NCBI RefSeq assembly: GCF_005771565.1
Contig: NZ_VAWA01000009.1
Location: 1 to 64,000 of the forward strand
Direction: 5' to 3'
From: Nesterenkonia sphaerica
GTDB taxonomy: Bacteria > Actinomycetota > Actinomycetes > Actinomycetales > Micrococcaceae
DNA length: 64,000 nt
Shown here: positions 1-13,798 of the stretch, in pieces
How the letters are laid out: every line of letters begins with the position of its first letter
How positions within the stretch are numbered: position 1 is the first letter of the stretch
The notes under the pieces: model-generated
Databases searched by the model: none
What the model saw: only the letters and a program-made list of their open reading frames with translations
Told to the model about the DNA's origin: nothing
Made by a program: the position numbers and the translations under genes

Positions 1-67
1 CGTTAAGCCGAGGAATTTCTACCGATCCGTCACAGGACCGGCCAGCACCAGATTCCTCGGCTTAACG
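1..67. repeat. Perfect 16-bp inverted repeat pair at the window edge
   Basis: Positions 1-16 (CGTTAAGCCGAGGAAT) are exactly the reverse complement of 52-67, with 35 bases between them. The pair could be a mobile-element end, a recombination site or a stem-loop. It sits just left of a truncated transposase, which favours a mobile-element origin. There is no T-run to make it a terminator. Confidence 0.75.
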
Positions 68-87
68 AAAACCTCGGCATAATCCGA

Positions 88-109
88 GTTAACCGGAACT
101 CCGGTTAAC
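88..109. repeat. 22-bp near-continuous palindrome at the transposase truncation point
   Basis: GTTAACCGGA (88-97) and TCCGGTTAAC (100-109) are perfect complements with a 2-base centre. The palindrome ends where recognisable transposase coding sequence begins (about 104), so it lies at the breakpoint that removed the 5' half of the element. It could be a protein-binding operator or a recombination scar. Confidence 0.75.
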
Positions 110-436
110 AGTGACCGCGGGGTGCAGTACACCTCTGAGGACACCCACAAGGTCTGCTCCACCTTGGGGATTAGCCAGTCGGTGGGTAGGACGGGGGTCT
201 GTTTTGATAACTCTATGGCCGAGAATGTGTTTTCTAAGCTGAAGACCGAGTTCTACTACCGGCGCTCATGGGCGACCCGAGCCCAGGCTCGCAGCGGGGT
301 AGCCTGCTGGATCGAGAAGGTCTATAACCGCCGTCGGCTGCACTCCGCTGTTGGGATGATCCCGCCAGTGGAATACGAGGAATCCCTCCGTCACCAGGCA
401 GAAGGACAGTCACAAGGAATTCAGGAAGCCGCCTGA
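104..436 (+). pseudogene. IS3-family transposase (OrfB/DDE integrase), 3' remnant
   Basis: The remnant keeps the end of an IS3-type rve integrase core. A degenerate HSDRG motif reads NSDRGVQYTS at its start and carries the second catalytic aspartate. The downstream motif SVGRTGVCFDNSMAENVFSK carries the catalytic glutamate, and the C-terminal signature YNRRRLHSAVGMIPPVEYE follows. The first catalytic aspartate, the N-terminal half and OrfA are missing. The frame is closed upstream by a stop at 80-82 and homology starts about codon 104, so this is a truncation rather than a frameshift. It cannot transpose by itself. The longest internal start is GTG at 122. It marks the window's left edge as an insertion hot spot. 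Confidence 0.9.
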
Positions 437-448
437 AGAACTAAGCAA

Positions 449-474
449 GTGTCCACGATTTGCGGGCAAGGCCA
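449..474. repeat. Possible right terminal inverted repeat of the IS3 remnant
   Basis: Twelve bases after the transposase stop lies a segment beginning GTGTCCACGATTTGCGGGCA and ending in CA, as IS3-family right ends do. The left partner is not in the window, so pairing cannot be verified. Beyond it, up to the hairpin at 664, I see no gene. Confidence 0.3.
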
Positions 475-663
475 ATGGCGCCCGAAGAGAAGCTGACTAT
501 CCTGCGGACCCGGCCTGCGCTAATAGAAAGAACAGCTCGCATTCCGAGTGACCAAAGGACGGTTCACGTGCGCCAAAGGCACACACTAACTCTTTTGCAG
601 GGCGGCCGCACTATGGCTACCCTCGACGACCGCATGGATGTTACCCCTTACTGTCGGTAGGAA

Positions 664-693
664 TCGGTTCTCAGGCGCTACGCCTAAAACCGA
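664..693. other. Two-tier hairpin in a gene-free stretch
   Basis: TCGGTT (664-669) pairs with AACCGA (688-693), and inside it AGGCG (673-677) pairs with CGCCT (681-685) around a CTA loop. No T-tract follows on either strand. This is the only structure I see between the IS remnant and the terminator at 745; that stretch has no convincing coding sequence. Confidence 0.45.
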
Positions 694-744
694 CGTCACA
701 GCGGTCGGTCTACATGATTGCTCACCCTTACTTTGAGGCGCAGA

Positions 745-774
745 AAAGGCCCCCACTATTCGGTGGGGGCCTTT
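745..774 (-). terminator. Strong Rho-independent terminator closing the phage-type gene run
   Basis: A 12-bp perfect stem, AAAGGCCCCCAC (745-756) and GTGGGGGCCTTT (763-774), has a 6-base loop. Read on the minus strand it lies 11 bases after the last phage-type ORF and runs into TTTT, so it closes that leftward transcript. T-rich sequence on the plus side could make it bidirectional. Confidence 0.85.
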
Positions 775-785
775 GGTTTCCTCGA

Positions 786-1166
786 TCATGGGTTCTCTTT
801 GAGCCAGGGGTCTAAATCAACGCCTACGAGCCATCTGCGCAGGACACCTTCTCGGCCAACCTGCCAGGCATCGAGATCGGGCCCGTGCTCTTTCAATCGT
901 TGGATCCGCTGAATCGTGCCTTGGGCAACTAATTCACGTTCTTCCTCGCTGAGACTCGGGTGCAGGTGGAGCTCGAAGGAGTAGCCGGGCTCACCAGACG
1001 ACGTTTTCCCAGGTTGAGCGATGATGCATGCAGCGTAGTTCTTGCCCAACTTAATTGCTTCTTCTGCCACTTGTGGATCGTCTTCAATTGGCATATTAAG
1101 ACGCTGCAGCCGCCGCATATAGTAGGCCACGTCTTGGCTCCTATCCGTGGTAGAACGTTCCTTCAT
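786..1166 (-). CDS. Hypothetical phage-type protein
   Basis: A 126-residue acidic, soluble protein without membrane segments or a motif I recognise. The second half is charged and helical-looking (LSEEERELVAQGTIQRIQRL). It is the last gene of a leftward run that includes a VRR-NUC nuclease and a broken replication gene, 23 bases from the former, and it is followed at once by a strong terminator. That arrangement resembles the early region of an actinophage or integrative element. The ribosome-binding site before the ATG is weak, so the start is uncertain. The function is unknown. Confidence 0.6.
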   Translation of the reverse strand: MKERSTTDRSQDVAYYMRRLQRLNMPIEDDPQVAEEAIKLGKNYAACIIAQPGKTSSGEPGYSFELHLHPSLSEEERELVAQGTIQRIQRLKEHGPDLDAWQVGREGVLRRWLVGVDLDPWLKENP

Positions 1167-1189
1167 CCTAGCGTGGCCCAGTCCTGCGT

Positions 1190-1546
1190 CTATCGTTTGC
1201 GGATATCTAGGGCGCGCAAAATTGCGCCGCTATGCAGGTTTTCCGGCTTCCAGGCGTGCGAGCTGATTTGGTGGCCATCAATCCATGCCCCTACCTGTCG
1301 CCAGACATCAAGCCACTGCTGCTGCTCGACTGTGACCTTGCCGAGTCGTCCCCGGCTGTTGTAACCCTTCAGCTCAATGAGCATTAGTCGGCCGGAAGTG
1401 TGCGCGGCGATGAAGTCCGGGAATCCGCGTTTCGACTTGCGGCTGTCTGTTTCGTGGTGCCATTTCCACCCGTACAGGGTGAGCATGTCCACGACTGCGC
1501 TCTGCAGCTCGGCTTCGCTCATACGCTTGGTGTGCTGGCGCCTCAT
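1190..1546 (-). CDS. VRR-NUC domain nuclease (phage type)
   Basis: A 118-residue stand-alone VRR-NUC (PD-D/ExK superfamily) protein. The core is visible: an acidic residue in SEAELQSAVVDML (E12 region), the catalytic GFPDFI motif near residue 42, IELKG near residue 58, and the helix KVTVEQQQWLDVWRQVGAWI. Phages and integrative elements commonly carry such small nucleases beside replication genes, where a role in processing branched DNA is proposed. All key residues seem present and the frame is intact, although the neighbouring replication gene has decayed. It lies between two hypothetical ORFs on the same strand. Confidence 0.85.
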   Translation of the reverse strand: MRRQHTKRMSEAELQSAVVDMLTLYGWKWHHETDSRKSKRGFPDFIAAHTSGRLMLIELKGYNSRGRLGKVTVEQQQWLDVWRQVGAWIDGHQISSHAWKPENLHSGAILRALDIRKR

Positions 1547-1629
1547 CGTGTCCTCTCTCGTTTGCTTTTGTAGCCCGCGTTGGCCTTCAGGCGCGCTGCC
1601 ACTTCCCTGAATGCTGGCGTTGGCGGCGT

Positions 1630-1911
1630 CTACGGTTTGCGCTCTGACGGCTCCCGGGCTCGCTGTTTGGCCTCAAATTCGCGCCGGCGCCTGCCGTACA
1701 GAATGCGCAGCACTGACGTGTCCATCGGCACCCGGCTGTGCGGCTCTGGGTGGCTGCCGTAATCGTCTTCAATCAGTGCCACCCCGGGCTCGAATGGGAC
1801 ATGCGGCAATTTCTTCTCCATCGTTCGCGCTGCGGCGTCGGTGTTGACCACCAGAGTGTCGTGGTGGCGCGCCAGTAACAGCAGCGCGTTGACCTCCCGT
1901 GGTGTCATCAT
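1630..1911 (-). CDS. Hypothetical phage-type protein
   Basis: About 93 residues from the ATG at 1911; the next ATG, 3 bases on, is equally possible because a GGGGG ribosome-binding sequence precedes both. The frame stays open up to a GTG at 1944. The N-terminus (MTPREVNALLLLARHHDTLV) looks helical and the C-terminus is Arg/Lys rich, which suggests nucleic-acid binding. It lies between the VRR-NUC gene and the broken replication gene on the same strand. I do not recognise the family. A competing frame at 1587-1772 has no motif and was not accepted. Confidence 0.55.
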   Translation of the reverse strand: MMTPREVNALLLLARHHDTLVVNTDAAARTMEKKLPHVPFEPGVALIEDDYGSHPEPHSRVPMDTSVLRILYGRRRREFEAKQRAREPSERKP

Positions 1912-1952
1912 GTCCCCCGTCCAGTTTGTGCGTGGCCGCCCCACAGTCCGGC

Positions 1953-2690
1953 CTATGTTGGCTGTGGCCTCATGTCGAACTCACCCGACTGGATGCGCTG
2001 GTCTCCGTCTTTGATGATTTGCAGTTCACGCTCGGCGGCCGTCAATTTCGGCGCCTGCTGGCCTGTTGCGTATTCGCTGGCCCGTGTCAGCCATGCGTGG
2101 AAGGCCAGGCCCCCAATCGGCGTATCGGTTGTCTTTCGACTGGTGGTGACTCTTGAATTTCTCAGCTTCCATGTGCAGGTCAAGAGAGAGTTGCCGCGCC
2201 ATGGCGCGGTGCGCGTCGGTCGGCTCCCAATCGTCAGGCAGTGGCACCTTCGGCTTGGCGCGCTTCACTCTCTTAGTACCTTTAGGTACTACGGGTACGG
2301 GCTCGGGTACGGGGGTTACGAACTCATCCGTTACAGGCGCGTGACTCACGTCGGTGTCACGGTGTGGCGCATGCGTGACACCGCTGTCGTTACTGTGTGT
2401 GTTTGGCTGCGGTTCCCGTTGACGTGCCTGTTTCTTCGGCCGCTGTTCTCAGCGTCGGCGCGGTCTTTCCTTTGACGCTTCACGCTATGACTCAACTGAT
2501 TCCCGCGTTGGCTGGTAGTCGTGCCAGTCACGGAATCGGTAGCCGTCCCCTGTGGTCTCCTAAAGTCCAGCCTCCACCAGCTCTGCCGCATGGGGGCAGT
2601 GCCCCGTGAACGCCTGCTCTGCCCTGGCCGAATGACACCGCCGGTCAGATCGTTGGCACACAGCCGCCGCCTGCCCTCCGTCGCTCTTTT
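1953..2690 (-). pseudogene. Decayed phage replication-organiser gene, copy 1
   Basis: Pieces in different frames together spell an actinophage replication initiator. From 5' to 3' they are LCANDLTGGVIRPG, then HAAELVEAGL followed by a TAG where tryptophan is expected, then GDGYRFRDWHDYQPTRE. The same frame then meets two more stops before PKVPLPDDWEPTDAHRAMAR and DLHMEAEKFKSHH. A final shift at a G5C2 tract gives GLAFHAWLTRASEYATGQQ. The N-terminal part matches winged-helix replication proteins and the C-terminal part the DnaT-like domain ending F..WL..A. At least two frameshifts and three stops make it non-functional. Sequencing error could explain one shift but not all. Confidence 0.8.
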
Positions 2691-3259
2691 GATCACTTCC
2701 TGCGCTGTCGAGCTCCACCTCATGGCGCGCACGTCATCGCCGGCGCCTTCTGCAACACCGGTTGCGCCGAGCCGGTGTCCGATGTCGAACTCGTCGTGAC
2801 ATTCGTCCTGGTCCCTCAGGCGTGTTTTTCGTGAAGGAAGAAATCGCCCTGTGGTGCCTGCGGGTGCCTCTGATGCGCAAGAGTGCATTTCTCGACTGCT
2901 AGGCCACTGACGGCCCCACACAGAGTCTCTGCGGATGCACCCCCGGCGATCGTGGAACTGTCGACACGGCAGCATCCGGCCAAATTGCAAGTCCTGGGGC
3001 ACGACAAGCAGCTGATGATCACCTGGCCATCTATGCGCGCACCGGCCTGTCTCCACCCTCCAAACCAATGCTCCTCTGCATAGCTCTGGTGGTCGTGGTG
3101 TCCTGCAACCCCTGTCTAATTAGTGGCTGACCACCCCAGAGCTCGGCTTGACTCGGCTCGCGCCCGATGGCCAACTGCCGAGGCAGGATGCGCTGGTCCC
3201 TGTCGGCGGCAATCTGCAGTATCACCTCTCGTGAGCTTCGGCGCCTGGTGGCCGACGCT
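2691..3259. other. Stretch between the two replication remnants, no intact gene
   Basis: Frames here are open in places but carry no recognisable motif, and apparent ORFs on both strands contradict each other. Because copy 1 decays into this stretch from the left, it most likely contains further eroded phage sequence. I cannot assign anything specific. Confidence 0.5.
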
Positions 3260-3633
3260 TTACTCGGCAGCCCGTGTCAACCAGGTGTAGCACGCCTCGT
3301 GAAAGTCGGAGCAACAGTTGTCGTTCGGGATGGTGGTAACTCTTGAATTTCGCAGTTTCCATATGCAGACCCAGTGAAAGTTTGACGCGCCTTGGCGCGG
3401 TGCGTAGCGGTCGGCTCCCAATCGCCAGGCAGCGGCACTTTTGGCTTTGCGCGCGAACTCTCTGGTTCTGGTTTAGGTTCTGGTTTAGGTTCTGGTTTTT
3501 CCTGCGCGCGAGGGGATACCCCATGCGATACCCCTTCGGATACCCCTTCCGGCATCTTTGGGAAAGGTGCATTTCTGACCATGAATTTGCTCACGGCATT
3601 CATGCCCGCTGGCCTATTCTCGTATTGGTCCAT
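3260..3633 (-). pseudogene. Decayed phage replication-organiser gene, copy 2
   Basis: A second, diverged copy of the same C-terminal domain lies upstream of copy 1 on the same strand. It begins MDQYENRPAGMNAVSKF, has a KPEP-repeat linker, then KPKVPLPGDWEPTATHRAKARQ. One extra A shifts the frame into LSLGLHMETAKFKSYHH. A further shift gives FHEACYTWLTRAAE and a stop at 3260. The order of motifs equals copy 1 and nucleotide similarity is obvious (for example around 3343-3452 against 2156-2263). The N-terminus differs from copy 1. It is non-functional by at least two frameshifts. Confidence 0.75.
3464..3499 (-). repeat. 12-bp tandem repeat encoding a KPEP linker
   Basis: Three units of GGTTCTGGTTTA (the last ending in T) at 3464-3475, 3476-3487 and 3488-3499. 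On the minus strand each encodes KPEP, a proline-rich linker inside replication-gene copy 2. A second 12-bp periodicity, GATACCCC at 3515, 3527 and 3539, encodes a GVS repeat just upstream in the same gene. Confidence 0.8.
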
Positions 3634-3645
3634 TCGGTGCAATTC

Positions 3646-3831
3646 TTAGCTTAGGGCTGCCCGTATCTGCACCGATTCGAGAAGGTCCAGAGCCGTGGCT
3701 ACGCCCGTGTCTGTCTTGATGGGTGCGAAGATGCGGCCATTGCGGATGAATGAGCGCACGCACGCCGCTTCGGTGGCGTCGTGAATCATGATGAAGGCGC
3801 GCTGTGCCAGTTTCTGACCGGCGTGCTCCAC
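3646..3831 (-). CDS. Small hypothetical ORF in the phage remnant
   Basis: A 61-residue frame starting at GTG 3831 with GGAG three bases upstream. It contains a plausible folded stretch (AFIMIHDATEAACVRSFIRN) but no motif I can name. It lies directly upstream of replication-gene copy 2 on the same strand, with its stop 13 bases before that gene's ATG. Given the decay around it, it may be a fragment of a longer protein. Confidence 0.35.
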   Translation of the reverse strand: MEHAGQKLAQRAFIMIHDATEAACVRSFIRNGRIFAPIKTDTGVATALDLLESVQIRAALS

Positions 3832-4101
3832 ACGCTCCGTCCTAATGTCATCGGCACTGGGAGAGATGCGTCGCGGACGCCAGTCGGTCGCGCCGGCAAT
3901 TCTCAGCTTCGGGTCAAGACGCGACTCTAAGGCACGGATTTAGGCAGCCTCAGGGCCCCGCGCACTTGGTGGCCTTGCGGCGAAACACGACGTGACTCGC
4001 GAGCTGATCCGTCTCCCTTGAAAGTCGCACGAACGGCTCTCTGCGAGAATCCTCGACGCCCGATCCGGAGCCCAGCGGGCCAGTACGGACAGTTCCAATG
4101 C

Positions 4102-4120
4102 GTATCCCCAATGGGGATAC
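4102..4120. promoter_or_regulatory. Operator-like palindrome GTATCCCC-AAT-GGGGATAC
   Basis: A perfect 8-bp inverted repeat with a 3-base centre, in an otherwise gene-free stretch (3832-4409). Its size and symmetry fit the binding site of a small dimeric repressor, as found in phage control regions. It sits next to a run of 10-bp direct repeats. Confidence 0.55.
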
Positions 4121-4126
4121 AAAATG

Positions 4127-4156
4127 GTGAATAGCAGTGAATAGCAGTTAATACTG
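4127..4156. repeat. Three head-to-tail 10-bp repeats
   Basis: GTGAATAGCA occurs at 4127-4136 and 4137-4146, followed by a degenerate GTTAATACTG at 4147-4156. The 10-base period puts each unit on the same face of the helix. This is the layout of excisionase or integrase arm-type sites and of some repressor sites. It lies about 90 bases from the tRNA-like 3' end. Confidence 0.55.
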
Positions 4157-4230
4157 GTGAAGACCTACCTATTTCGGCAGGCGGGCTGGATGGCCCTGGA
4201 TGCCTGCAATGACGGCGAAGTGGGCCGATT

Positions 4231-4274
4231 GTTACGAAACCTTGCAAGGTGGTTCAAGTCCCCCTCCGCGCACA
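4231..4274 (+). other. tRNA 3'-end fragment (leucine type), probable att remnant
   Basis: CCTT-GC-AAGG (4240-4249) resembles a long variable arm. The T-loop TTCAAGT (4253-4259) is flanked by GGTGG and CCCCC, with one mismatch. TCCGCGC (4265-4271) could be the 3' acceptor strand, with an A discriminator and CA after it. The 5' half (expected to begin GCGCGGA) is absent upstream. A 3' fragment like this is what remains at one end of an element that integrated into a tRNA gene. The Leu assignment rests on the variable arm and the T-loop, and is tentative. Confidence 0.5.
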
Positions 4275-4321
4275 GTGTGATGTGCCGGGACGTCGTTCAC
4301 AGATGTCTCAGCACATTATTG

Positions 4322-4370
4322 AAAGGTAGGGTTCTGGACCGTCGGGTTCGGGGCCCTACCTTTTTTTGTC
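4322..4370 (+). terminator. Rho-independent terminator downstream of the tRNA-like fragment
   Basis: AAAGGTAGGG (4322-4331) pairs with CCCTACCTTT (4354-4363) and runs into seven Ts on the plus strand. No plus-strand protein gene precedes it, so it was probably the terminator of the tRNA gene whose 3' end lies 50 bases upstream. Confidence 0.75.
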
Positions 4371-4409
4371 CCGAGGTCCGTGCGGCGGCTGCGGAGGGTG
4401 TCGCTCGGC

Positions 4410-5273
4410 TCAGTCCTCGTAGACGCCGAACTGCTCCAGCAGCTGCTCGTCCACGAGGAGCTCTGAGCGGGCCTCCGCGCCCCTTTCCACCGCGACGGCG
4501 GTCGCCAGCGTCTGGCTCAACGACGTGAAGACACTCAGCGAGCGAAGGATCGTCACGCCCTCAGTCTCGATGAGGAAGACATGGTCAGCTAGCTGCGCCA
4601 AGGGCGAGGACCTGTCATCAGTCAGCGCGATCGTCGTCAGCCCCTTCTCCCGGGCGTATCTGAGGCCTTGGACGGTACTTGCGGTATACCGCCGGATCGA
4701 CGCTGCGATGAAGGCATCCCCCGCCTCGAGGTTCCGCAGCTCGTCCACCAGCCCGCCTTCTGCCGGTGCCAGCTGGAACACCTGGGGCCGCACCAGACCC
4801 AGAAGATAGGCCAGCAGCTGCGCGACGCTGGCGCATTTGCGCAGGCCCAGGACATGGACTCGGGGTGCAGCAGCGAGGGTCCGCACTGCCTCCTGCCACA
4901 CCTCAGGCACGATCCGGGAGTATGTGCGACGCAGGTTCTCCTGCTCGTGGTGCAGCACTGCCGCGAACATGTCATCGGAGCTCGATCCTTCAACGAGATC
5001 GAACCGGGAGACCAGGTTTGCCTGCTGCGTCACCTGTGCCCGGCACAGGCCGACGACCGCAGCGTACCCGGGCAGGCCCAGGGACTGCGCGAATCGCACC
5101 ACGGAGGACTGATTCACCGCAGCGAGTTCGGCGGTCTGGGCGATGGTGCGGAAGGCGGTGCCCTCCGGGTCGCGCAGCAGCAGATCCGCTATACGCTCCT
5201 GTCCAGGGGCAAGGCCGGCGCTGCGGCGAGCCTGGAGCGCTGCGGCCAGCTGATCGTAACTCTCAATAGCCAT
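4410..5273 (-). CDS. MurR/RpiR-family transcriptional regulator
   Basis: A 287-residue regulator. An N-terminal HTH_6 domain occupies about residues 20-80 (GQERIADLLL ... SSVVRFAQSLGLPGY). A C-terminal SIS phosphosugar-binding domain begins near residue 135 (RVHVLGLRKCASVAQLLAYL). Family members sense phosphosugars or related metabolites and control catabolic genes. The ATG at 5273 is preceded by an AAAGG/GGCAGG ribosome-binding sequence; the frame stays open to an ATG at 5303. It lies 55 bases downstream of the aminotransferase on the same strand, so both may be co-transcribed and it may control that operon. The inducer is unknown. Confidence 0.9.
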   Translation of the reverse strand: MAIESYDQLAAALQARRSAGLAPGQERIADLLLRDPEGTAFRTIAQTAELAAVNQSSVVRFAQSLGLPGYAAVVGLCRAQVTQQANLVSRFDLVEGSSSDDMFAAVLHHEQENLRRTYSRIVPEVWQEAVRTLAAAPRVHVLGLRKCASVAQLLAYLLGLVRPQVFQLAPAEGGLVDELRNLEAGDAFIAASIRRYTASTVQGLRYAREKGLTTIALTDDRSSPLAQLADHVFLIETEGVTILRSLSVFTSLSQTLATAVAVERGAEARSELLVDEQLLEQFGVYED

Positions 5274-5328
5274 CCTGCCTGCCTTTCGGTTCACTGCCGT
5301 CATTCTCCGTTAGGCCCTCAGGCGACGA

Positions 5329-6579
5329 TCACCGCAGCAGTGCGGTGAGGGCCTCGCGGAGGTGGTCCAGCGCCTCAGCAGTCCATGGCAGATTGAGCGG
5401 GTCAGTGGAGCCCAACGCCGCCCAGCGCTCTTCCTCGGTGGAGCCGTAGAGCAGACTCGTCGCCACCCGCGCCCGCACCCGCCGGTCGTCGTCGCCGAAT
5501 GCTGCCCCGGCAAGCACCCCGACACCGTGGTCATTAAGGAGGACGCGTGCCAACTCCGTGCCCGTGGTGATTCCGCGCGCCGCTAGCCGCTCCCGCTGGG
5601 GCTCGAAGTCCGGATACAGGTAGAACCCCGCAGCCGGCGGACGTGCGACGGCGCCGACCTGGGCGAACTCCTCATACACAGCGGCAGCGACTGTGGCGTG
5701 CAGCCGAGTGGACTGCTCAATGTGGGCCAGAACCTCAGGTGCGTCGCTGAGGACGAATCCGGCGGCTTCCTGTTGCGGAGCGGCCAGCCCGGACCAGACC
5801 TCACTGGCGACTCCCACGATTCTCTGATGCACCGCGCGGCCCCATTCCGTGGCAGGTATGCGGGCGTAGCCGATTCGCCAGCCGCCCAGGGCAAGCGACT
5901 TCGAGAGGCCAGTAGTCACGATCACACGGTCGGGAAGCAGCTCGGCAATGCTCGGTGACTGTTGGCCTGAGTGGACCACTGAGGCATAGATCTCATCGGA
6001 GATCACCGCCAGGCCGTAGTGCTCCGCTATCTGGGCGATCTCCTGCAGCTGCGCCCATGAGGCCACCGTGCCGGTGGGATTATCCGGCACCGTGAGGACG
6101 AGCACCCCTGGCTCACGCCCGGCCTGTACGGCCTCCCTCAGCCGGCTGCGCAGCTGCTCCGGCTCGGGGACTCCTCCGGCTGGAGCCGAAATGGGCACCG
6201 GAATGGTGCGCTTGCCCAGCAGCGCTGCCTGAGCGGCATAGCTGACCCAGGACGGTGTCGGCAGCACCAGATCGCCGGGGAGGCTGGCCAGGCCAGCGAA
6301 CAGCAGGGCCTTGCTGCCGGGAGCGAAGATCACCTGGTCGGCCTCGGTGGGCAGGCCGCGGCGTGCGAACCATCCCGCCGCCTGAGCCCGCACATGCGGG
6401 GCGCCGACCACCGGCCCGTACCCATTGCGGTGCGCATGTTCGGCCAGCGCATTCTGGATACTGGGCAGCACCGGCAGACCGGCTTCCCCGAAGCCCAGGT
6501 GCAGAACTCGTTCCCCGCGAGCACGCCGGGCAAGCACTGCTTCGTTGATGGCCAATGTGGCCGAATGCATCGTAGTCAC
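5329..6579 (-). CDS. PLP-dependent class I/II aminotransferase
   Basis: Fold-type I aminotransferase of about 416 residues. Counting from the internal ATG at 6570, it has the cofactor motif VPDNPTG at about 161-167, SDEIY at 191-195, and Schiff-base lysine K224 in TTGLSKSLALGGWRIGY. The C-terminal small domain is complete. GTG 6579 has AAGGAG four bases upstream, while ATG 6570 lies 13 bases from it; either may be used. It is divergent from the VOC gene and followed by the RpiR regulator, so the three may form one catabolic unit. The substrate cannot be told from sequence; closest in style to aspartate/aromatic-type enzymes. Confidence 0.88.
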   Translation of the reverse strand: MTTMHSATLAINEAVLARRARGERVLHLGFGEAGLPVLPSIQNALAEHAHRNGYGPVVGAPHVRAQAAGWFARRGLPTEADQVIFAPGSKALLFAGLASLPGDLVLPTPSWVSYAAQAALLGKRTIPVPISAPAGGVPEPEQLRSRLREAVQAGREPGVLVLTVPDNPTGTVASWAQLQEIAQIAEHYGLAVISDEIYASVVHSGQQSPSIAELLPDRVIVTTGLSKSLALGGWRIGYARIPATEWGRAVHQRIVGVASEVWSGLAAPQQEAAGFVLSDAPEVLAHIEQSTRLHATVAAAVYEEFAQVGAVARPPAAGFYLYPDFEPQRERLAARGITTGTELARVLLNDHGVGVLAGAAFGDDDRRVRARVATSLLYGSTEEERWAALGSTDPLNLPWTAEALDHLREALTALLR

Positions 6580-6597
6580 AACTCTCCTTAGCAATCC

Positions 6598-6736
6598 TAG
6601 TTGCGTACAAAACCTTACACGCAATCACAATTGCCCGGCACCCCGGCTGACTCCGGAGCGCGAATGGCGAATGCCACCTATTGGTTGCAGCTTTAACCAA
6701 GTTATGGGACACTGGCATTACTTGTTACCGCAACTA
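6598..6736. promoter_or_regulatory. Divergent regulatory region with several inverted repeats
   Basis: Between the aminotransferase and the VOC gene lie TTGCGT (6601-6606) with ACGCAA (6619-6624), GCAAT-CACA-ATTGC (6621-6634), and TTGGTT (6681-6686) with AACCAA (6695-6700). TAGTTGCG at 6598-6605 recurs inverted as CGCAACTA near 6729-6736. On the minus strand, TTGCGT then TAGGAT, 19 bases apart, is a candidate promoter overlapping the first repeat. These are plausible sites for the adjacent RpiR regulator. Confidence 0.45.
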
Positions 6737-6758
6737 AAACGCTTGAAGGAAACTACTC

Positions 6759-7655
6759 ATGGAAGCACCGGCCTGGGCCCCTGAAGCCGTCGAGACACCG
6801 GGCGCGGCGGCGGCCGACACCCGCATGGACACTGTCGAACTGCTGGTCCACGACCTCGACGCGATGACCGCCTTCTACCGCGACGCGGTGACACTCGATG
6901 TCCTGGACCAGTCCGGTCCCACCGCAACTCTGGGCCGCGGAATCCGCCCCATGGTGATGCTGAAGCAGGAGAAGCATCTGCCAGGACGTGACAGCTACGG
7001 AGCCGGTCTCTTCCACACCGCCATCGTGTTCGAGGACCAACGCCGGCTGGCCGCAGCCTTGGCCTCCATGGCCGAAAACGCAGGAGACCTGTACCAGGGT
7101 GCCGCGGACCACTTGGTCAGTGAAGCCTTCTACTTCGCTGATCCCGAAGGCAACGGGATCGAGCTGTACCGCGACCGGCCCCGCGACCAGTGGCAAATCA
7201 GCGGCGGGGTGATCCAGATGGCGTCGAATCCCCTGAGCCCCCGGCAATATCTGACCCAGTGGCACGATCCCGACCTGCCCGCAGGCGGGACCTCTGCCGC
7301 CATCGGACACGTGCACCTCCAAGTCGGCGACATTCCCACGGCCCAGCACTTCTACACCGACATCATGGGGCTCGACGCCACCTTCAGGATGGGCCGCTCC
7401 GCACTCTTCGTCTCCGCCGGCGGTTATCACCATCACCTGGGACTCAATACCTGGAACAGTGCTGGAGCGGGCCCCCGCGCGGCCACCCTGGGTCTGGGCG
7501 ATGTGCGGATGCTGACTCCCACTCGGGAGGATGTTGAGGCTCTGGCGGAGCGGCTCAGGCATTACCAGGTGCCGTTTGCCGACGATGGCAGCACGCTGCG
7601 TTTCGAGGACCCTTGGAAGACCCAGCTGATGGTCAGTCCCGAACAGGCAGCGTGA
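6759..7655 (+). CDS. VOC-family protein, catechol-2,3-dioxygenase-like
   Basis: A 298-residue protein with two vicinal-oxygen-chelate modules at about residues 22-140 and 180-292. Candidate metal ligands are H86 (FHTAIVF) and E135 (GNGIELY) in module 1, and H184/H186 (IGHVHLQVGD) in module 2; YHHH follows at 223-226. Size and layout resemble Bacillus CatE-type extradiol dioxygenases, and the Glu/His ligands imply a divalent metal. AAGGAAAC upstream supports the ATG. It is divergent from the aminotransferase, with shared operator candidates. The ring substrate is unknown; a glyoxalase-type lyase is an alternative. Confidence 0.85.
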   Translation: MEAPAWAPEAVETPGAAAADTRMDTVELLVHDLDAMTAFYRDAVTLDVLDQSGPTATLGRGIRPMVMLKQEKHLPGRDSYGAGLFHTAIVFEDQRRLAAALASMAENAGDLYQGAADHLVSEAFYFADPEGNGIELYRDRPRDQWQISGGVIQMASNPLSPRQYLTQWHDPDLPAGGTSAAIGHVHLQVGDIPTAQHFYTDIMGLDATFRMGRSALFVSAGGYHHHLGLNTWNSAGAGPRAATLGLGDVRMLTPTREDVEALAERLRHYQVPFADDGSTLRFEDPWKTQLMVSPEQAA

Positions 7656-7664
7656 ACCGGTCTG

Positions 7665-8558
7665 CTAACCGACCAGCAGGTTCCGGAGCATCACTGCCAG
7701 CGCTACCAGGCCCAGTGTGATGATGACCGCGCGCAGCACCAGTGGCGAGAGCTTCCGGCCCACCCACGCGCCAATGACTCCGCCCACGGTGGAGCCGACT
7801 GCGATGATCGCCACCACACCCCAGAGGATGACTCGGTCGTCGGGCTCGCGAATCAGGTAGTCCACCACCACATAGCTGACCGCGGCAGTGAGGTTCACGA
7901 ACGCCACCAGGAGGTTCTTCACCCCGTTGGCCTGCTGCATTGTGGCTGCCAGCAGGATACCCATGATGCCCATCAGCAGGATGCCCTGCGCAGCGACAAA
8001 ATACCCGCCGTAGACCCCTGCGAGGAACACCAGCAGGATCAGCGGCCAGCCGACCGAGTCGGCCGCCTTGCGCGCCACCGTCTCCGGATCGTCCTGCGGC
8101 TGCGGCGTGCGCGGATCGGGATCCTCGGTGCGCTCTGCGGTGCGCCGCCTGACCCAGGCCGCCAGCCGCGGCTGGGCGATGACCATCACCAGTGCAAGCA
8201 CGATCAGCAATGGCGCCACAGCGCCGAAGACTTCCTCGGGCAGCGTGATCAGCAGTGTCGCGCCGATGACGCCACCGAGGAAAGACGCAGGAATCAGCCG
8301 GCCTAGGACGGACCTGATCTGGACGATCTCCCTGCGGTACCCCCAGGCGCCGGTGAAGTTCCCGGCGATCAGCCCCATGGCATTCGACACCGTCGCGGAG
8401 ACGGGCGGGACCCCCATCGCCACCAGCACAGGGAAGGTGACCAGGGTCCCGGAACCGACCACAGTGTTGATGGAACCGGCCCAGATGGCGGCGATGAAGA
8501 TCAGCAGCAGCAGACCTGCGCCCAGGCCGTGCAGTTCGAACTCGAGCAGCGCCTCCAA
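7665..8558 (-). CDS. TauE/SafE-family sulfite/organoanion exporter
   Basis: A 297-residue integral membrane protein with about eight hydrophobic segments. The first family repeat is clear near the N-terminus (AGSINTVVGSGTLVTFPVLV, ANAMG-like SNAMGLIAGN) and the second is seen near GVYGGYFVAAQGIL. A charged cytoplasmic loop (RRRTAERTEDPDPRTP) separates the halves. The family exports sulfite, sulfoacetate and similar anions. The only usable start is TTG at 8558, four bases after the ABC ATPase stop, which suggests translational coupling. The substrate is unknown. Confidence 0.85.
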   Translation of the reverse strand: MEALLEFELHGLGAGLLLLIFIAAIWAGSINTVVGSGTLVTFPVLVAMGVPPVSATVSNAMGLIAGNFTGAWGYRREIVQIRSVLGRLIPASFLGGVIGATLLITLPEEVFGAVAPLLIVLALVMVIAQPRLAAWVRRRTAERTEDPDPRTPQPQDDPETVARKAADSVGWPLILLVFLAGVYGGYFVAAQGILLMGIMGILLAATMQQANGVKNLLVAFVNLTAAVSYVVVDYLIREPDDRVILWGVVAIIAVGSTVGGVIGAWVGRKLSPLVLRAVIITLGLVALAVMLRNLLVG

Positions 8559-8562
8559 GGCG

Positions 8563-9348
8563 TCAGCTCTTCATGAAGGCGCTGTACCGGCCTTCACGCT
8601 CGGTCAGCTCCAGGGGCATGTCAAAGGTGGTGCTGAGGTTTTCCGAGGTCAGCGTCTCGGCCAGGGGCCCTGCGGAAACCACCTGTCCGTCGCGCAGCAG
8701 CAGCACGTGGGTGAATCCGGGGGGAATCTCCTCCAAATGGTGGGTGACCAGCACCGTGGCAGGAGCGAAGGCACCTTGCACCAGCGCGGCGGTCCGCGCC
8801 ACCAGAGCTTCTCGGCCTGCCAGGTCGAGCCCGGCTCCGGGCTCATCCAACAGCAGCAGCTCGGGGTCAGTCATCAGCGCCCGGGCAATCTGGACTCGCT
8901 TGCGCTCCCCCTCGCTGAGCGTGGCGAAGGGCCGGTCGAACACGGTGCCGACACCCCAGTCGTTGAGCAGCTGGAAAGCCCGGCGCTCGTCCTGCCTCTC
9001 GTACTCTTCCCGCCACCGTCCGGTCACCCCGTAGGCGGCGGTGACCACCACGTTCAGCGAGGTTTCCCGCCCGGGCAGGGTGTGCGCCACCGAGTTCGAA
9101 CACAGGCCGATGCGCGGACGCAGCTCAAAGACATCCACCCCGCCCAAAGTTTCGCCAAGGATTTCAGCGCTGCCTGCGGTGGGAAACATACGGGCGGCGG
9201 CAATCTGCAGCAGCGTCGTCTTCCCCGCTCCGTTGGGGCCCAGGATCACCCAGCGCTCCCCGTCCTCAATCCGGAAGTCGACGTCGTCGAGGAGCAGTTT
9301 GCGGCCACGGCGCACAGTGACACTGGAGAGATTCAGCACGGGACTCAT
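8563..9348 (-). CDS. ABC transporter ATP-binding protein
   Basis: A 261-residue ABC ATPase. The Walker A motif GPNGAGKTT is at residues 37-45, the signature LSEGERKRVQIARAL is near 143, Walker B LLLLDEP follows, and the switch histidine is in VTHHLEE. No permease is adjacent: the next gene is the TauE/SafE exporter, which is not a known ABC partner. It resembles the soluble ModF/YlmA-type ATPases. A TAGGGT hexamer seven bases before the ATG suggests a leaderless transcript, divergent from serB. Confidence 0.88.
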   Translation of the reverse strand: MSPVLNLSSVTVRRGRKLLLDDVDFRIEDGERWVILGPNGAGKTTLLQIAAARMFPTAGSAEILGETLGGVDVFELRPRIGLCSNSVAHTLPGRETSLNVVVTAAYGVTGRWREEYERQDERRAFQLLNDWGVGTVFDRPFATLSEGERKRVQIARALMTDPELLLLDEPGAGLDLAGREALVARTAALVQGAFAPATVLVTHHLEEIPPGFTHVLLLRDGQVVSAGPLAETLTSENLSTTFDMPLELTEREGRYSAFMKS

Positions 9349-9397
9349 GCGCCCAACCCTACCGAACCGCTCTCGCGGTTATAGGCTGAGACGCGCT

Positions 9398-10366
9398 ATG
9401 ACTGATCTGCCTTCCGGGACTATTGCCATGCTCGCCGCCGAAGACCTCGACGGCCCCCTGACCCGCTCGCTGACCGCGGAATTTGACCGCCGCGGCAGGG
9501 TCCACCACACCGAATCCGCCGAATTCACCACGCCGTCCGGCACCATCCGCGCTGTGCGATGGTCCTTGGAGCTGGGTGACTCGGACGACACTTTCGGCAC
9601 CCAGCTGATCAGTTCGCTGCTCGACGACGCCGCAGCCCAGCTCGCACCCGCCCATGTCACCACCACGGTGCTCCCGGCCCGGCAGCGCCCCACCGGGGAG
9701 ATGCTGCTGATCATGGACGTGGACTCGACGCTGATCGATCAGGAGGTCATTGATCTGCTGGCCGGTTTCGCCGGCGCCGCCGAGGAGGTCGCCGAGGTCA
9801 CCGAACGGGCGATGCGCGGGGAGCTGGACTTCACCCAGAGCCTGCACGCCCGCGTGGCGACACTGGCTGGGCTGGACGACACAGTTCTTCACGAAACCTC
9901 TGCGGCGCTGACCGCCACCACCGGCGCCACAGACCTCATCAGCACCTGGCAGCGCCGGGGCTGGCCCGTCTACGCGGTCTCGGGGGGCTTCCGCCAGCTA
10001 CTGGAACCACTTGCGGAGCAACTGGGTCTAACCGGCTTTGACGCCAACACGCTCCAGGTGCGCGACGGGCGCCTCACCGGCCGCACCGCAGGTCACATCG
10101 TCGATCCGCACACCAAGCGGCAGCGCCTGCTGGAGTGGAGCAAGCACCATGCCACGCCTGTTCAGAATGTGGTCGCTGTGGGCGATGGTGCCAATGATGC
10201 CGATATGGTGAAAGAGGCAGGCGTGGGGGTCGCTTTCTGCGCCAAGCCGGCGTTGGCGGAGCACGCCGACCTGGTGATCACTCATCGCCATATGGGGCTC
10301 ATTGCCTACGCCATCGGCTTGGCCACAGAGGCGACGAAACCCACTCCCCCCGGTAGGGTGGAGTGA
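9398..10366 (+). CDS. serB: Phosphoserine phosphatase
   Basis: A 322-residue HAD-family phosphatase performing the last step of serine synthesis. The nucleophile motif is MDVDSTLID (D107 and D109), and the metal-binding motif GDGANDADMVKEAG is near residue 256. About 95 extra N-terminal residues precede the catalytic domain, as in other actinobacterial SerB proteins with an ACT-like regulatory part. The ATG at 9398 is preferred: TATAGGCT lies ten bases upstream without a good ribosome-binding site, which suggests a leaderless or very short leader. It is divergent from the ABC ATPase and 70 bases before tkt. Confidence 0.92.
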   Translation: MTDLPSGTIAMLAAEDLDGPLTRSLTAEFDRRGRVHHTESAEFTTPSGTIRAVRWSLELGDSDDTFGTQLISSLLDDAAAQLAPAHVTTTVLPARQRPTGEMLLIMDVDSTLIDQEVIDLLAGFAGAAEEVAEVTERAMRGELDFTQSLHARVATLAGLDDTVLHETSAALTATTGATDLISTWQRRGWPVYAVSGGFRQLLEPLAEQLGLTGFDANTLQVRDGRLTGRTAGHIVDPHTKRQRLLEWSKHHATPVQNVVAVGDGANDADMVKEAGVGVAFCAKPALAEHADLVITHRHMGLIAYAIGLATEATKPTPPGRVE

Positions 10367-10436
10367 GACACGGCACGAGGGCGTGCCTCCTATAGGCCCC
10401 ACCCAGAGACACATCACCGCTTGGAGGACTCTCACT

Positions 10437-12545
10437 GTGACCGAAATCTTCACCGACCTGGACAAGAAGGCCGTGAACACCCTGCGGGTGCTCGCCGCCG
10501 ACGCCGTCGAGAAAGTCGGCTCAGGCCACCCCGGCACTGCGATGTCACTCGCCCCGGCAGCCTACCTGCTGTTCCAGAAGGTGATGCGCCATGACCCCTC
10601 GGACCCCGAGTGGGCCGGCCGGGACCGGTTCATCCTCTCCCCCGGGCACTCCAGCCTGACCCTCTACCTGCAGCTGTACTTCTCCGGATACGGTCTGGAG
10701 CTGGACGACATTCGCGCCCTGCGCACCTGGGGATCACTGACACCGGGCCACCCCGAGTACGGCCACACCGACGGCGTGGAGATCACCACCGGGCCCTTAG
10801 GTCAGGGCCTGGCCTCGGCAGTCGGCTTCGCCTACGGTCAGCGCCGACTGCGCGGCCTGCTGGACCCTGAGGCGGATCCGGGGACCTCCCCCTTCGACCA
10901 CCACGTCTGGGTCATCGCCTCCGACGGCGACCTCCAGGAAGGCGTCACCTCTGAAGCCTCCTCGCTGGCCGGGCATCAGCAGCTGGGCAACCTCAACGTG
11001 ATCTGGGATGACAACAAGATCTCGATTGAGGACGACACTGACATCGCCTTCACCGAAGATGTCATGGCACGCTACGCAGCCTATGGCTGGCACGTTCAGC
11101 GGGTCGACTGGCTGAAGACCGGCAACTACGCCGAGGACATCGAAGAGCTCCACCGGGCGCTCAGCGCCGCCAAGGCTGAAACGGCCAAGCCCTCGTTGAT
11201 CGCGCTGCGCACAGTGATCGGCTGGCCCGCACCGGGCAAGCAGAACACCGGTGGGATCCACGGCTCAAAGCTCGGGGAGGAGGAGCTGGTCGCCACCAAG
11301 GAGATCCTCGGCTTCGACCCAGAGCAGCACTTCCACGTCGAGGACGAGGTCATCGGCCATGCCCGGCAGGTCGGTGAGCGGGGTGCTGCCGCCCGCGCCG
11401 AGTGGGAAGACAGCTATGCGGCCTGGCGGGAAGCCAACACCGATGCTGCCGCCCTGTACGACCGGCTTGTCGCCGGCGAACTGCCCCCGGGGTGGGAGGA
11501 CCGGCTCCCCGTCTTCCCCGCCGGTGAATCGGTCGCCACTCGGGCGGCCTCCGGCAAAGTGATCAACGCCGTCGCACCGGTGCTGCCCGAACTCTGGGGC
11601 GGATCAGCGGACCTCGCCGGATCGAACAACACGCTCATCGCCGGTGAGGATTCCTTCGGCCCGCACAGCTGGTCCACCGGGAAATTCTCCGCCCAGCCGT
11701 TCGGGCGAAATCTGCACTTCGGCGTGCGGGAACATGCCGCAGCCGCGATCACGAACGGCATCCAGCTCTCCGTGCCGCTGCGCACCTACAACGGCACCTT
11801 CCTGATCTTCTCCGACTATCAGCGCCCGGCAGTCCGTCTGGCCGCCCTGATGGGCGTGGGCTCCATCTTCGTATGGACCCACGACTCGATTGGCCTGGGT
11901 GAGGACGGCCCCACCCACCAGCCGGTCGAACAGCTGGTCAGCCTCCGGGCCATCCCCGGGCTGGATGTCACCCGGCCAGCCGACGCCAACGAGGTCGCGG
12001 TGGTGTGGCGTGAGGTTCTCAAGCGCGCCGACCGGCCCGCAGGGATCGCCCTGACCCGACAGGGTGTGCCCACGTTCGCCCGGGGCGAGGGCCCCGCCAC
12101 CGCTGAAGCGTTCGCCTCGGTGGAAGGTGCCGCCCGCGGCGCCTACGTGCTGGCAGAGTCAGTCCGCGACGGCGTCGTCACCACCCCCGACGTCATCCTC
12201 ATCGGCACCGGGTCCGAGGTGTCGCTGGCTGTCGAAGCCCGCGATGAGCTGGCTGGAAAAGGAATCGCCGCCCGCGTGGTCTCCGCCCCGTGCTTGGAGT
12301 GGTTCGCCGAGCAGGACCCCGCCTACCGGGAATCGGTGCTCCCGAAGGATGTCAGAGCCCGTGTCGCCGTGGAGGCGGCGCACCCGTTGAGCTGGTATCC
12401 CTACGTCGGCGACGCCGGCCGGATTGTGGGCCTGGACCACTTCGGGGGCTCAGCTGACTACAAGGAGCTGTACACGCAGTTCGGCATCACCGCCGAGGCA
12501 GTCACGGCCGCGGCTGAAGATTCCATCAGCGCCGCGAAGAACTGA
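10437..12545 (+). CDS. tkt: Transketolase
   Basis: A 702-residue thiamine-diphosphate enzyme of the non-oxidative pentose phosphate pathway. Visible are the N-terminal substrate motif [13 protein letters not shown], the cofactor motif [10 protein letters not shown], the pyrimidine-domain motif [13 protein letters not shown], and [19 protein letters not shown] at 10437 is chosen because GGAGGA lies ten bases upstream and homology begins at once. It heads the tkt-tal-pgi-zwf-pgl run, all on one strand with short gaps, so the pathway is probably made from one or two transcripts. Confidence 0.97.
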
Positions 12546-12577
12546 ACTTTCACGACCTTCTGACCAAGGAGCACAGC

Positions 12578-13720
12578 ATGACCGTCGACACCGAGTCCAC
12601 CACCGGCAACCCCCGCACTCAGGCGCTCTCCGACATCGGAGTGTCCATCTGGCTGGACGACCTCTCCCGGGAGCGGCTGAACTCCGGCTCCCTGGCGAGG
12701 CTCATCAAGACCCACCATGTGGTGGGTGTGACCACCAATCCGACCATCTTTGAAACAGCCGTCAGCTCCGGAGAAGCCTATGAGCAGCAGCTGGCCCAGC
12801 TGGCGGAGCAGGGCGCCGACGCCGAACAGGCCGTTTTCGAGATCACCACCTCGGATGTGCGGGAAGCCTGTGATGTGTTTGCCGAGACCTACTCGGCCAC
12901 CGGAGGGGTGGACGGGCGAGTCTCCATCGAGGTGGACCCGCGCATGGCTCGTGATGCCGATGCCACGATCGCCGAAGCAAAACGGCTCTACCAGGCGGTC
13001 GGACGCGAGAACGTCATGATCAAGATTCCCGCCACGGTGGAGGGGATCGAGGCCATTGCCGCGGTGCTGGCGGAGGGGATCAGCGTCAATGTGACCCTGG
13101 TCTTCTCCCTGGAGCGTTACCGTGCAGTGATCAACGCCTTCATGCTCGGCTTGGAGAAGGCACACACCGACGGTCTGGACATCTCCAAGATCCACTCGGT
13201 CGCGAGCTTCTTCGTCTCCCGGGTTGACAGCGAGGTGGACAAGCGTTTGGAGCTGGCCGCCGAAGAGGGCAAACCCGGAACTGAGAAGCTGAAGTCCAAA
13301 GCTGCCATCGCCAACGCCCGGCTGGCCCACCAGATCGCGGCCGAGTCGTTCAGCTCGGAGCGCTGGCGGCTGCTGGCCGAACGCGGCGGCCGGCCGCAGC
13401 GCCTGCTGCTGGCTTCCACCGGCACCAAGGACCCCAGCCTGTCTGACACCCTCTACGTCACCGAGCTGGCCGCAGCGGGGGTGGTCAACACCATGCCGGA
13501 GAAGACACTGCAGGCTCTGGCCGATCACGGCGAGGTGGACGGGGACACGATGACCGACACCTACGTGGAGTCCAACCGGGTGCTCGACGGGATCTCCGCA
13601 GCCGGTATCAGCTACCGCTCCGTGGTGGAGACCCTGGAGGCTGAAGGGCTGGAAAAGTTCGACAAATCCTGGGAAGGGTTGCTCAGCACCATCGATGAGG
13701 GCCTGAAGCGCCAGAGGTAA
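12578..13720 (+). CDS. tal: Transaldolase
   Basis: A 380-residue class I aldolase exchanging dihydroxyacetone units between sugar phosphates. Family signatures are [13 protein letters not shown] near residue 50 and the Schiff-base region [13 protein letters not shown] near 147, whose lysine is catalytic. The length fits the actinobacterial Tal group and is longer than E. coli TalB. AAGGAG lies seven bases before the ATG. It is 32 bases downstream of tkt and 78 upstream of pgi. Confidence 0.96.
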
Positions 13721-13798
13721 GCGGCACCGGAGCATATCCGGCCACCGCGTGAGCGGGACTCCCCGCCGGAACGAATTCGCAGAGAAGGGAACACTCAG

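Follow-up and report, generated by a model that had tools for sequence, protein, structure and literature searches.

The segment at positions 4102–4275 of the window (the whole stretch of DNA that was analysed, 64,000 nucleotides long, from the beginning of C86, one of the 86 contigs of a draft genome of 2.79 Mb) is very probably the attR site of a temperate-phage-type element that uses a lambda-like tyrosine integrase to enter the T-loop of tRNA-Leu(GAG), with arm-type and excisionase sites as proposed below. The att core is shared with an intact tRNA gene that is located next to an integrase gene on another contig, the corresponding site is empty in relatives, and the arm word occurs at both ends of the element; from this arrangement we infer the protein binding, the point of exchange and the excisionase assignment that are described further on.

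The junction and its partner on contig C7

The features of the window at the junction and to the left of it are the following, with the basis of each in parentheses:

1–474, plus strand: right end of an insertion sequence (IS) at the contig edge, with a transposase tail at 122–436, IS3-type by our own reading (rve_3/rve_2 and transposase PHROGs; the exact IS end is putative)
475–4101, minus strand: part of the decayed element next to attR (same-strand relatives of its pieces in related elements)
1190–1546, minus strand: VRR-NUC gene, within 475–4101
about 2026–2349 and 3646–3831, minus strand: replication-initiator-like pieces, within 475–4101
about 3222–3642, minus strand: second similar copy of the replication-initiator-like piece, by eye, within 475–4101
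4102–4120, no strand: P-arm inverted pair of putative integrase arm-type sites, TATCCCC / GGGGATA, with a 3-bp gap (the word is that of the 21-bp-spaced direct pair before the integrase gene on C7)
4127–4166, plus strand: candidate excisionase sites, a set of four helically phased direct repeats of 10 bp (p=0.007; phased repeats in 3 of 10 related attR arms, p<0.02)
4239–4250, no strand: 12-bp perfect palindrome ACCTTGCAAGGT abutting the core (sequence)
4251–4275, plus strand: attR core, i.e. T-loop and 3' acceptor strand of tRNA-Leu(GAG) (the intact tRNA of C7 ends in the same 25 bases)
4276–4369, plus strand: original chromosomal sequence 3' of tRNA-Leu, with the displaced tRNA terminator at 4322–4367 (match in the relative G018)

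A sequence-only reading had proposed that this area is the attR of an integrated element, and it proves correct in its essentials. The 19-bp palindrome that it reported, GTATCCCCAATGGGGATAC, is present at 4102–4120; of 400 shuffled 270-nt sequences, 3 contained a palindrome with arms of at least 9 and a gap of 0–4. As it had described, the 10-bp direct repeats stand in helical phase, but they are four in number rather than three, starting at 4127, 4137, 4147 and 4157 and matching the first copy at 10, 10, 7 and 7 of 10 positions (counted by eye); an exact tandem 10-mer turned up in 5 of 20,000 shuffled sequences of this length (270 nt), and the 64-kb window has no other instance. The leucine-type tRNA 3' end without a 5' half is GGTTCAAGTCCCCCTCCGCGCACAG, located at 4251–4275, which belongs to tRNA-Leu(GAG), and neither ARAGORN nor Rfam finds a complete tRNA at this position. 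The terminator-like inverted repeat is also there, with arms at 4322–4340 and 4345–4363 followed by T; a second scan gave a shorter form of it. By eye, the 12-bp palindrome ACCTTGCAAGGT is not evident in the other attR arms that were compared.

In a search of positions 4081–4380 against the window's own genome, the sole other match (E up to 0.001) is located on contig C7, where it falls at the 3' terminus of a complete tRNA-Leu(GAG), with the 25 bases GGTTCAAGTCCCCCTCCGCGCACAG identical in both copies, and a gene for a tyrosine integrase of 387 aa (PF00589, phrog_1) begins 100 bp past this tRNA. Because of the identical tRNA 3' end and the integrase gene that follows the C7 copy, C7 is taken to carry attL and positions 4251–4275 of the window to be attR; the complete tRNA-Leu with the same 3' end, which the sequence-only reading had suggested looking for, is thereby found. 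Contig C7 terminates approximately 270 bp beyond the integrase gene, in a stretch read as an IS from sequence alone, while C86 starts in a transposase gene that differs from the IS at the end of C7; hence, the placement of the integrase gene and attR on separate contigs is attributed to assembly breaks inside apparently different IS elements on the two sides. Window 437–474 has further copies close to where contig C8 of this genome begins, and in four relatives (G010, G014, G017 and G026).

Empty sites occur in two relatives, G018 and G007, in agreement with a further check that had been suggested. In G018, the tRNA-Leu continues directly into the counterpart of window 4276–4369, and window 4248–4369 matches the tRNA-Leu 3' end and what directly follows it there with 87.8% identity; since the tRNA runs without interruption into the hairpin sequence in G018, the orphan hairpin of the window is the displaced native terminator of tRNA-Leu, so that the hairpin reported earlier stands and its description as a terminator with no gene to serve does not. 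The same bases without a neighbouring island, which the sequence-only reading had named as contrary to its proposal, do formally occur in G018, but there they are joined to the rest of the tRNA; the site looks as attB must, and the proposal is left intact. In G007, both outer flanks are located on one contig: the C7 flank is 85% identical up to the tRNA and, approximately 140 bp after the tRNA, the window flank 7678–14565 resumes, in two pieces of 79 and 75% identity. C7 and C86 are thus two sides of one locus, and we infer that they are joined by one insertion.

On the left side of the junction, the phage and IS debris that had been described is confirmed by the IS end and by broken phage-type genes. 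The core metabolism that had been described on the right side is found in part, the exception being the first genes, since window 4370–7677 (an RpiR-type regulator gene and, by eye, aminotransferase and VOC genes) is absent at the matching place in G007, so that this stretch was either gained separately here or lost from G007. The RpiR gene was of no use as a synteny marker, since the highest-scoring match among the remaining 29 genomes of the genus has 28% identity.

Other irregularities have been observed at this tRNA. In G014 (L098), the rpmE2–tRNA-Leu segment looks inverted relative to its neighbours, which would be another rearrangement at the same tRNA, and a copy of the tRNA 3' part is located approximately 3.6 kb downstream (G014:C55:275611-275672, query 374–434, 76%). 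More partial tRNA-Leu(GAG) 3' ends are found at G002:C4:9394-9415 and G011:C1:1366257-1366320, and perhaps belong to other islands at the same site.

Related elements and their arm words

Integrase matches were present in 196 of the 197 genomes searched within the family, and the comparison set consists of the 30 integrase loci listed (L064–L093). A tRNA or tmRNA gene is located upstream of the integrase gene in 26 of these 30, mostly at a distance of about 100 bp, with approximately 0.5 kb in G090; the four loci with no tRNA found nearby (L073, L080, L086 and L093) were left out of the spacer counts. A second att copy was found in 10 of 15 other elements, at 41.7 kb in G011 and at 11–51 kb in nine more, and the shared att stretch begins in the T-loop or a few bases before it in these 10 elements, as it does in the window. 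Five of the 16 elements gave no attR within the span searched, which was approximately 30 kb in G163, 40 kb in G154 and 52 kb in G083, and 60 kb in the others (G138 and G161 among the five); in G027 and G007, a second, weaker copy of the tRNA end occurs at 39.8 and 41.3 kb from the tRNA, respectively, and the nearer, longer copy was used. Searches of phage and plasmid DNA with the window region returned no match; the integrase search returned no confirmed locus in genome contigs and one weak locus of 26% identity in viral contigs (L094), which was not used. The integrase of phage Bauer is 35% identical, and its gene overlaps the preceding one.

The window's element is a decayed relative of these elements. 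Translated pieces of window 1193–2606 have same-strand relatives inside six of the 10 related elements (G007, G011, G020, G027, G080 and G140), with matches at the DNA level in G007, G011 and G027, and no relatives of these pieces were found in the elements of G090, G190, G127 and G193; the G027 element carries phage portal and terminase genes. The replication-initiator-like pieces of the window look broken and are located nearer to attR than their counterparts in the relatives, G007 excepted, and the gene order of the window's element differs from that of G080. A portal match (PF04860) is not found in the window's genome, and the sole TerL_ATPase match there is located on contig C75, which carries another integrase gene. 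This other integrase and terminase (G000:C75:25810-30629) are probably part of a separate prophage.

The element on C7 carries two copies of TATCCCC, 21 bp apart, in the P' arm before the integrase gene, and the same word occurs as an inverted pair in the P arm of the window. In an open scan of the 26 spacers between tRNA and integrase gene for pairs of 9 bases at 17–26 bp, the top-listed pair has a spacing of 21 bp in 23 spacers, while some pair at any distance of 17–26 bp is found in 4–19% of shuffled spacers. An exact run of at least 7 bases at 21 bp is present in 25 of 26 spacers versus 0.4% of shuffles, and a run of at least 8 in 24 of 26 versus 0.08%, with the spacing of 21 bp having been picked after the sequences had been inspected; the sole spacer without a 7-base run, that of G138, has a 9-base pair with one mismatch. 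The word changes from element to element: it is TATCCCCAAAT in the window's element, GTTCCCCAAA in G011, TGTTACCTA in G027 and ATCGCACC in G020.

Each element's own 7-base word was then used in a search for inverted pairs across the 11 elements that have an attR (the window included), over 42–64 kb each. In nine of the 11, exactly one inverted pair of the element's own word (at most one mismatch in 14) is present, located 107–152 bp before the attR core; in the window, this is 4102–4120, the only such pair at that threshold. Seven elements have a gap of 3 bp inside the pair, one has 5 bp and G011 has 13 bp. As for the remaining two, the only inverted pair of G193 with at most one mismatch is away from the core, at a distance of 33.7 kb, and in G080 the span searched contains no such pair; weaker, likely P-arm pairs are visible in both at two or more mismatches. 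The mean fit of the elements' own words to their own arms is 0.82, and the best of 20,000 permutations of the arms reaches 0.76; three of the 11 words (G190, G127 and G007) fit the arm of another element slightly better, and the same or nearly the same word is shared by G190 and G127, and by G027 and G007. Given the own-word inverted pair before the core in nine of 11 elements and the fit of words to their own arms, the 19-bp palindrome is best read as two putative integrase arm-type sites that face each other, and not as an operator.

The spacers between tRNA and integrase gene tend to fold: in 23 of 26, the first 60 nt have a folding energy below -12 kcal/mol (a count without a shuffle control), and many of these folds are one hairpin, which overlaps the first arm site in some elements, including the window's (L003:10092-10126). 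The spacer hairpin is perhaps a terminator that the element supplies for the rebuilt tRNA.

Phased repeats, proposed mechanism and rival readings

The 10-bp repeats at 4127–4166 are located between the arm pair and the core, which is the region where the excisionase sites of lambda and L5 are found. In the excision of lambda, Xis binds the P arm in attR together with Int, IHF and Fis, according to PMC4111918. The sequence-only reading had offered the repeats as Xis or Int sites; of these, excisionase sites are the likely prediction and integrase sites the less likely one, since the integrase word is TATCCCC. Three-copy repeats with a period of 9–12 were evaluated in the 60 nt after the arm pair of 11 arms, with 300 shuffles each and the palindrome ends set by hand. 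Phased repeats exceeded the shuffles in the window (p=0.007), G011 (0.017), G127 (0.017) and G193 (0.003), and did not do so significantly in the remaining seven arms (p from 0.096 to 0.997); with significance in four of 11 arms only, the excisionase reading is likely rather than proven.

A candidate excisionase is present in the G011 element, where an HTH_17 protein of 80 aa is encoded approximately 2.4 kb inside attR. The G027 element encodes a relative of this protein; G007, G020, G127, G193 and the window's own genome yielded no homolog. The latter has eight other HTH_17 matches, all located on contigs without a link to the attR element, the middle of which is unassembled.

In the mechanism that we propose, the integrase would recombine the element into the T-loop of tRNA-Leu(GAG), with the exchange probably occurring in TTCAAGT; the insertion would rebuild the tRNA at attL, on C7, with an element-borne 3' sequence and hairpin, and would push the native 3' end of the tRNA and its terminator to attR. 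The N-terminal domain of the integrase, in which a region that varies with the arm word is seen in the alignment, would bind the palindrome, with its two facing arm sites, in the P arm and, likewise, the 21-bp-spaced direct pair before the integrase gene at attL, while a small helix-turn-helix excisionase may bend the DNA at the phased 10-bp repeats for excision.

Two other origins were weighed for the elements of this junction as a whole. If the palindrome were a repressor operator, as had been suggested, and the 10-bp repeats were iterons or promoter repeats unrelated to recombination, the junction would resemble phage control regions, in which dimer-bound palindromes and short direct repeats are common; genes for a Cro/C1-type HTH protein, an M78 (ImmA-type) peptidase and an antirepressor are indeed located close to attR in G011. 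However, the half-site is the word of the pair that precedes the integrase gene at the opposite end, and where the word differs between the compared elements the P-arm pair differs with it, on which grounds the operator has been rejected; a scan restricted to promoters of the sigma-70 type, other types being outside it, gives no match at 4000–4500 either, and we hold this account of palindrome and repeats to be very unlikely. A tRNA fragment left by chance or by gene duplication, rather than an att site, is suggested by the conservation of tRNA 3' ends, by the occurrence of such fragments in genomes and by the partial copies in relatives, but it is contradicted by the empty sites: the next 94 bases are the native downstream sequence of tRNA-Leu in G018, the outer flanks are adjacent in G007, and the intact copy has the integrase gene beside it, which makes a fragment exceedingly improbable.

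The phased repeats could also be sites of a host DNA-bending protein, or additional integrase sites, in place of excisionase sites. The lack of a relative of the G011 candidate in the window's genome and the small number of arms with significant repeats speak for such sites; the repeat sequence differs from the arm word, and the position of the repeats is that of the Xis region in lambda and L5, so that we consider them rather unlikely and retain the excisionase reading.

Known systems and the integrase N terminus

In L5 and lambda, attP and attR proceed from arm sites through the direct repeats of Xis to the core, and the integrase has an N-terminal arm-binding domain. The window has a similar arrangement (arm sites, phased repeats that are candidate Xis sites, core); unlike L5 and lambda, its P-arm sites form one palindrome, its arm word is another one, and no xis is identified here. 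Within the same genus, the G011 element has an integrase of 56% identity, a similar layout of P and P', a TTCCCC arm word and phased repeats after the arm sites, while it differs from the window's element in its tRNA-Thr(CGT) target, in the 41.7 kb between its att copies and in the 13 bp between its inverted arm sites.

The tyrosine integrase of the cluster K1 mycobacteriophage CrimD is 33% identical to that of the window's element. According to PMC3203893, the CrimD core is located at the 3' end of a tRNA-like gene, and the exchange has been proposed to take place within the T-stem or close to it; each side of the core has a pair of arm sites, a stem-loop is situated between the core and the integrase-side sites, and the arm word differs between phages; all of these are likenesses to the window's element and its family. 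The differences are the target, which is a tmRNA in CrimD and tRNA-Leu(GAG) here, and the integrase-side pair, which is direct at 21 bp in the window's element, whereas P3/P4 of CrimD are inverted relative to P1/P2 (PMC3203893); in the 382 nt before the CrimD integrase gene, the only direct repeat of at least 7 bases at 15–29 bp is an unrelated one at 19 bp. By our own reading, attP of CrimD has a palindrome, GTGTTGATGCCATCAACAC, before the core, 225 to 207 bp before the integrase gene (L182). In GTGTTGATGCCATCAACAC, an inverted copy is located beside a direct GTTGATG word. Arm-site pairs that flank the core, and their variation between phages, have already been published (PMC3203893, PMC3706429 and PMC10865867); a published account of this set of elements was not found in our literature searches.

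In an alignment of 26 integrase N termini, two residues that flank a conserved V vary with the arm word; they correspond to positions 16 and 18 of the integrase of the window's element and to 17 and 19 of that of G103 as well as, judged by eye, that of CrimD. The second residue is L or M in six of the seven elements with TGA in their word versus none of the 19 others; the sisters G207 and G161 (support 100/100) have L with TGTTGAC and R with TGTGTACA, respectively, and CrimD, which is outside the set, has L with a TTGATG word. Positions 17 and 19 had earlier been named as word-reading candidates for cluster K1 phages, in PMC3203893. The residue classes, including L/M/T for residue 19, were chosen after the data had been seen, and a tree-based pair test with L/M/T as one class gave three pairs on supported branches with a median p of 0.25, which is not significant; the residue code is therefore exploratory. 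It is possible, and we put it forward tentatively, that throughout this integrase family the arm word is read mainly by N-terminal residues 17 and 19 (CrimD numbering) and that the word at both ends turns over with them, which would amount to a simple arm-recognition code that is readable from the sequence.

The junction is ordinary in kind and unusually clear. It pins down where an island of a draft genome ends, accounts for the orphan terminator as well as the orphan tRNA end, and indicates how a palindrome near attR can be identified as arm sites, namely by looking for its half-site before the integrase gene. The set of 26 elements ties arm words to integrase residues and extends the suggestion on positions 17 and 19 that is made in PMC3203893; if the proposed code is true, the attR family of the window would yield an arm-recognition code of the integrase from sequence.
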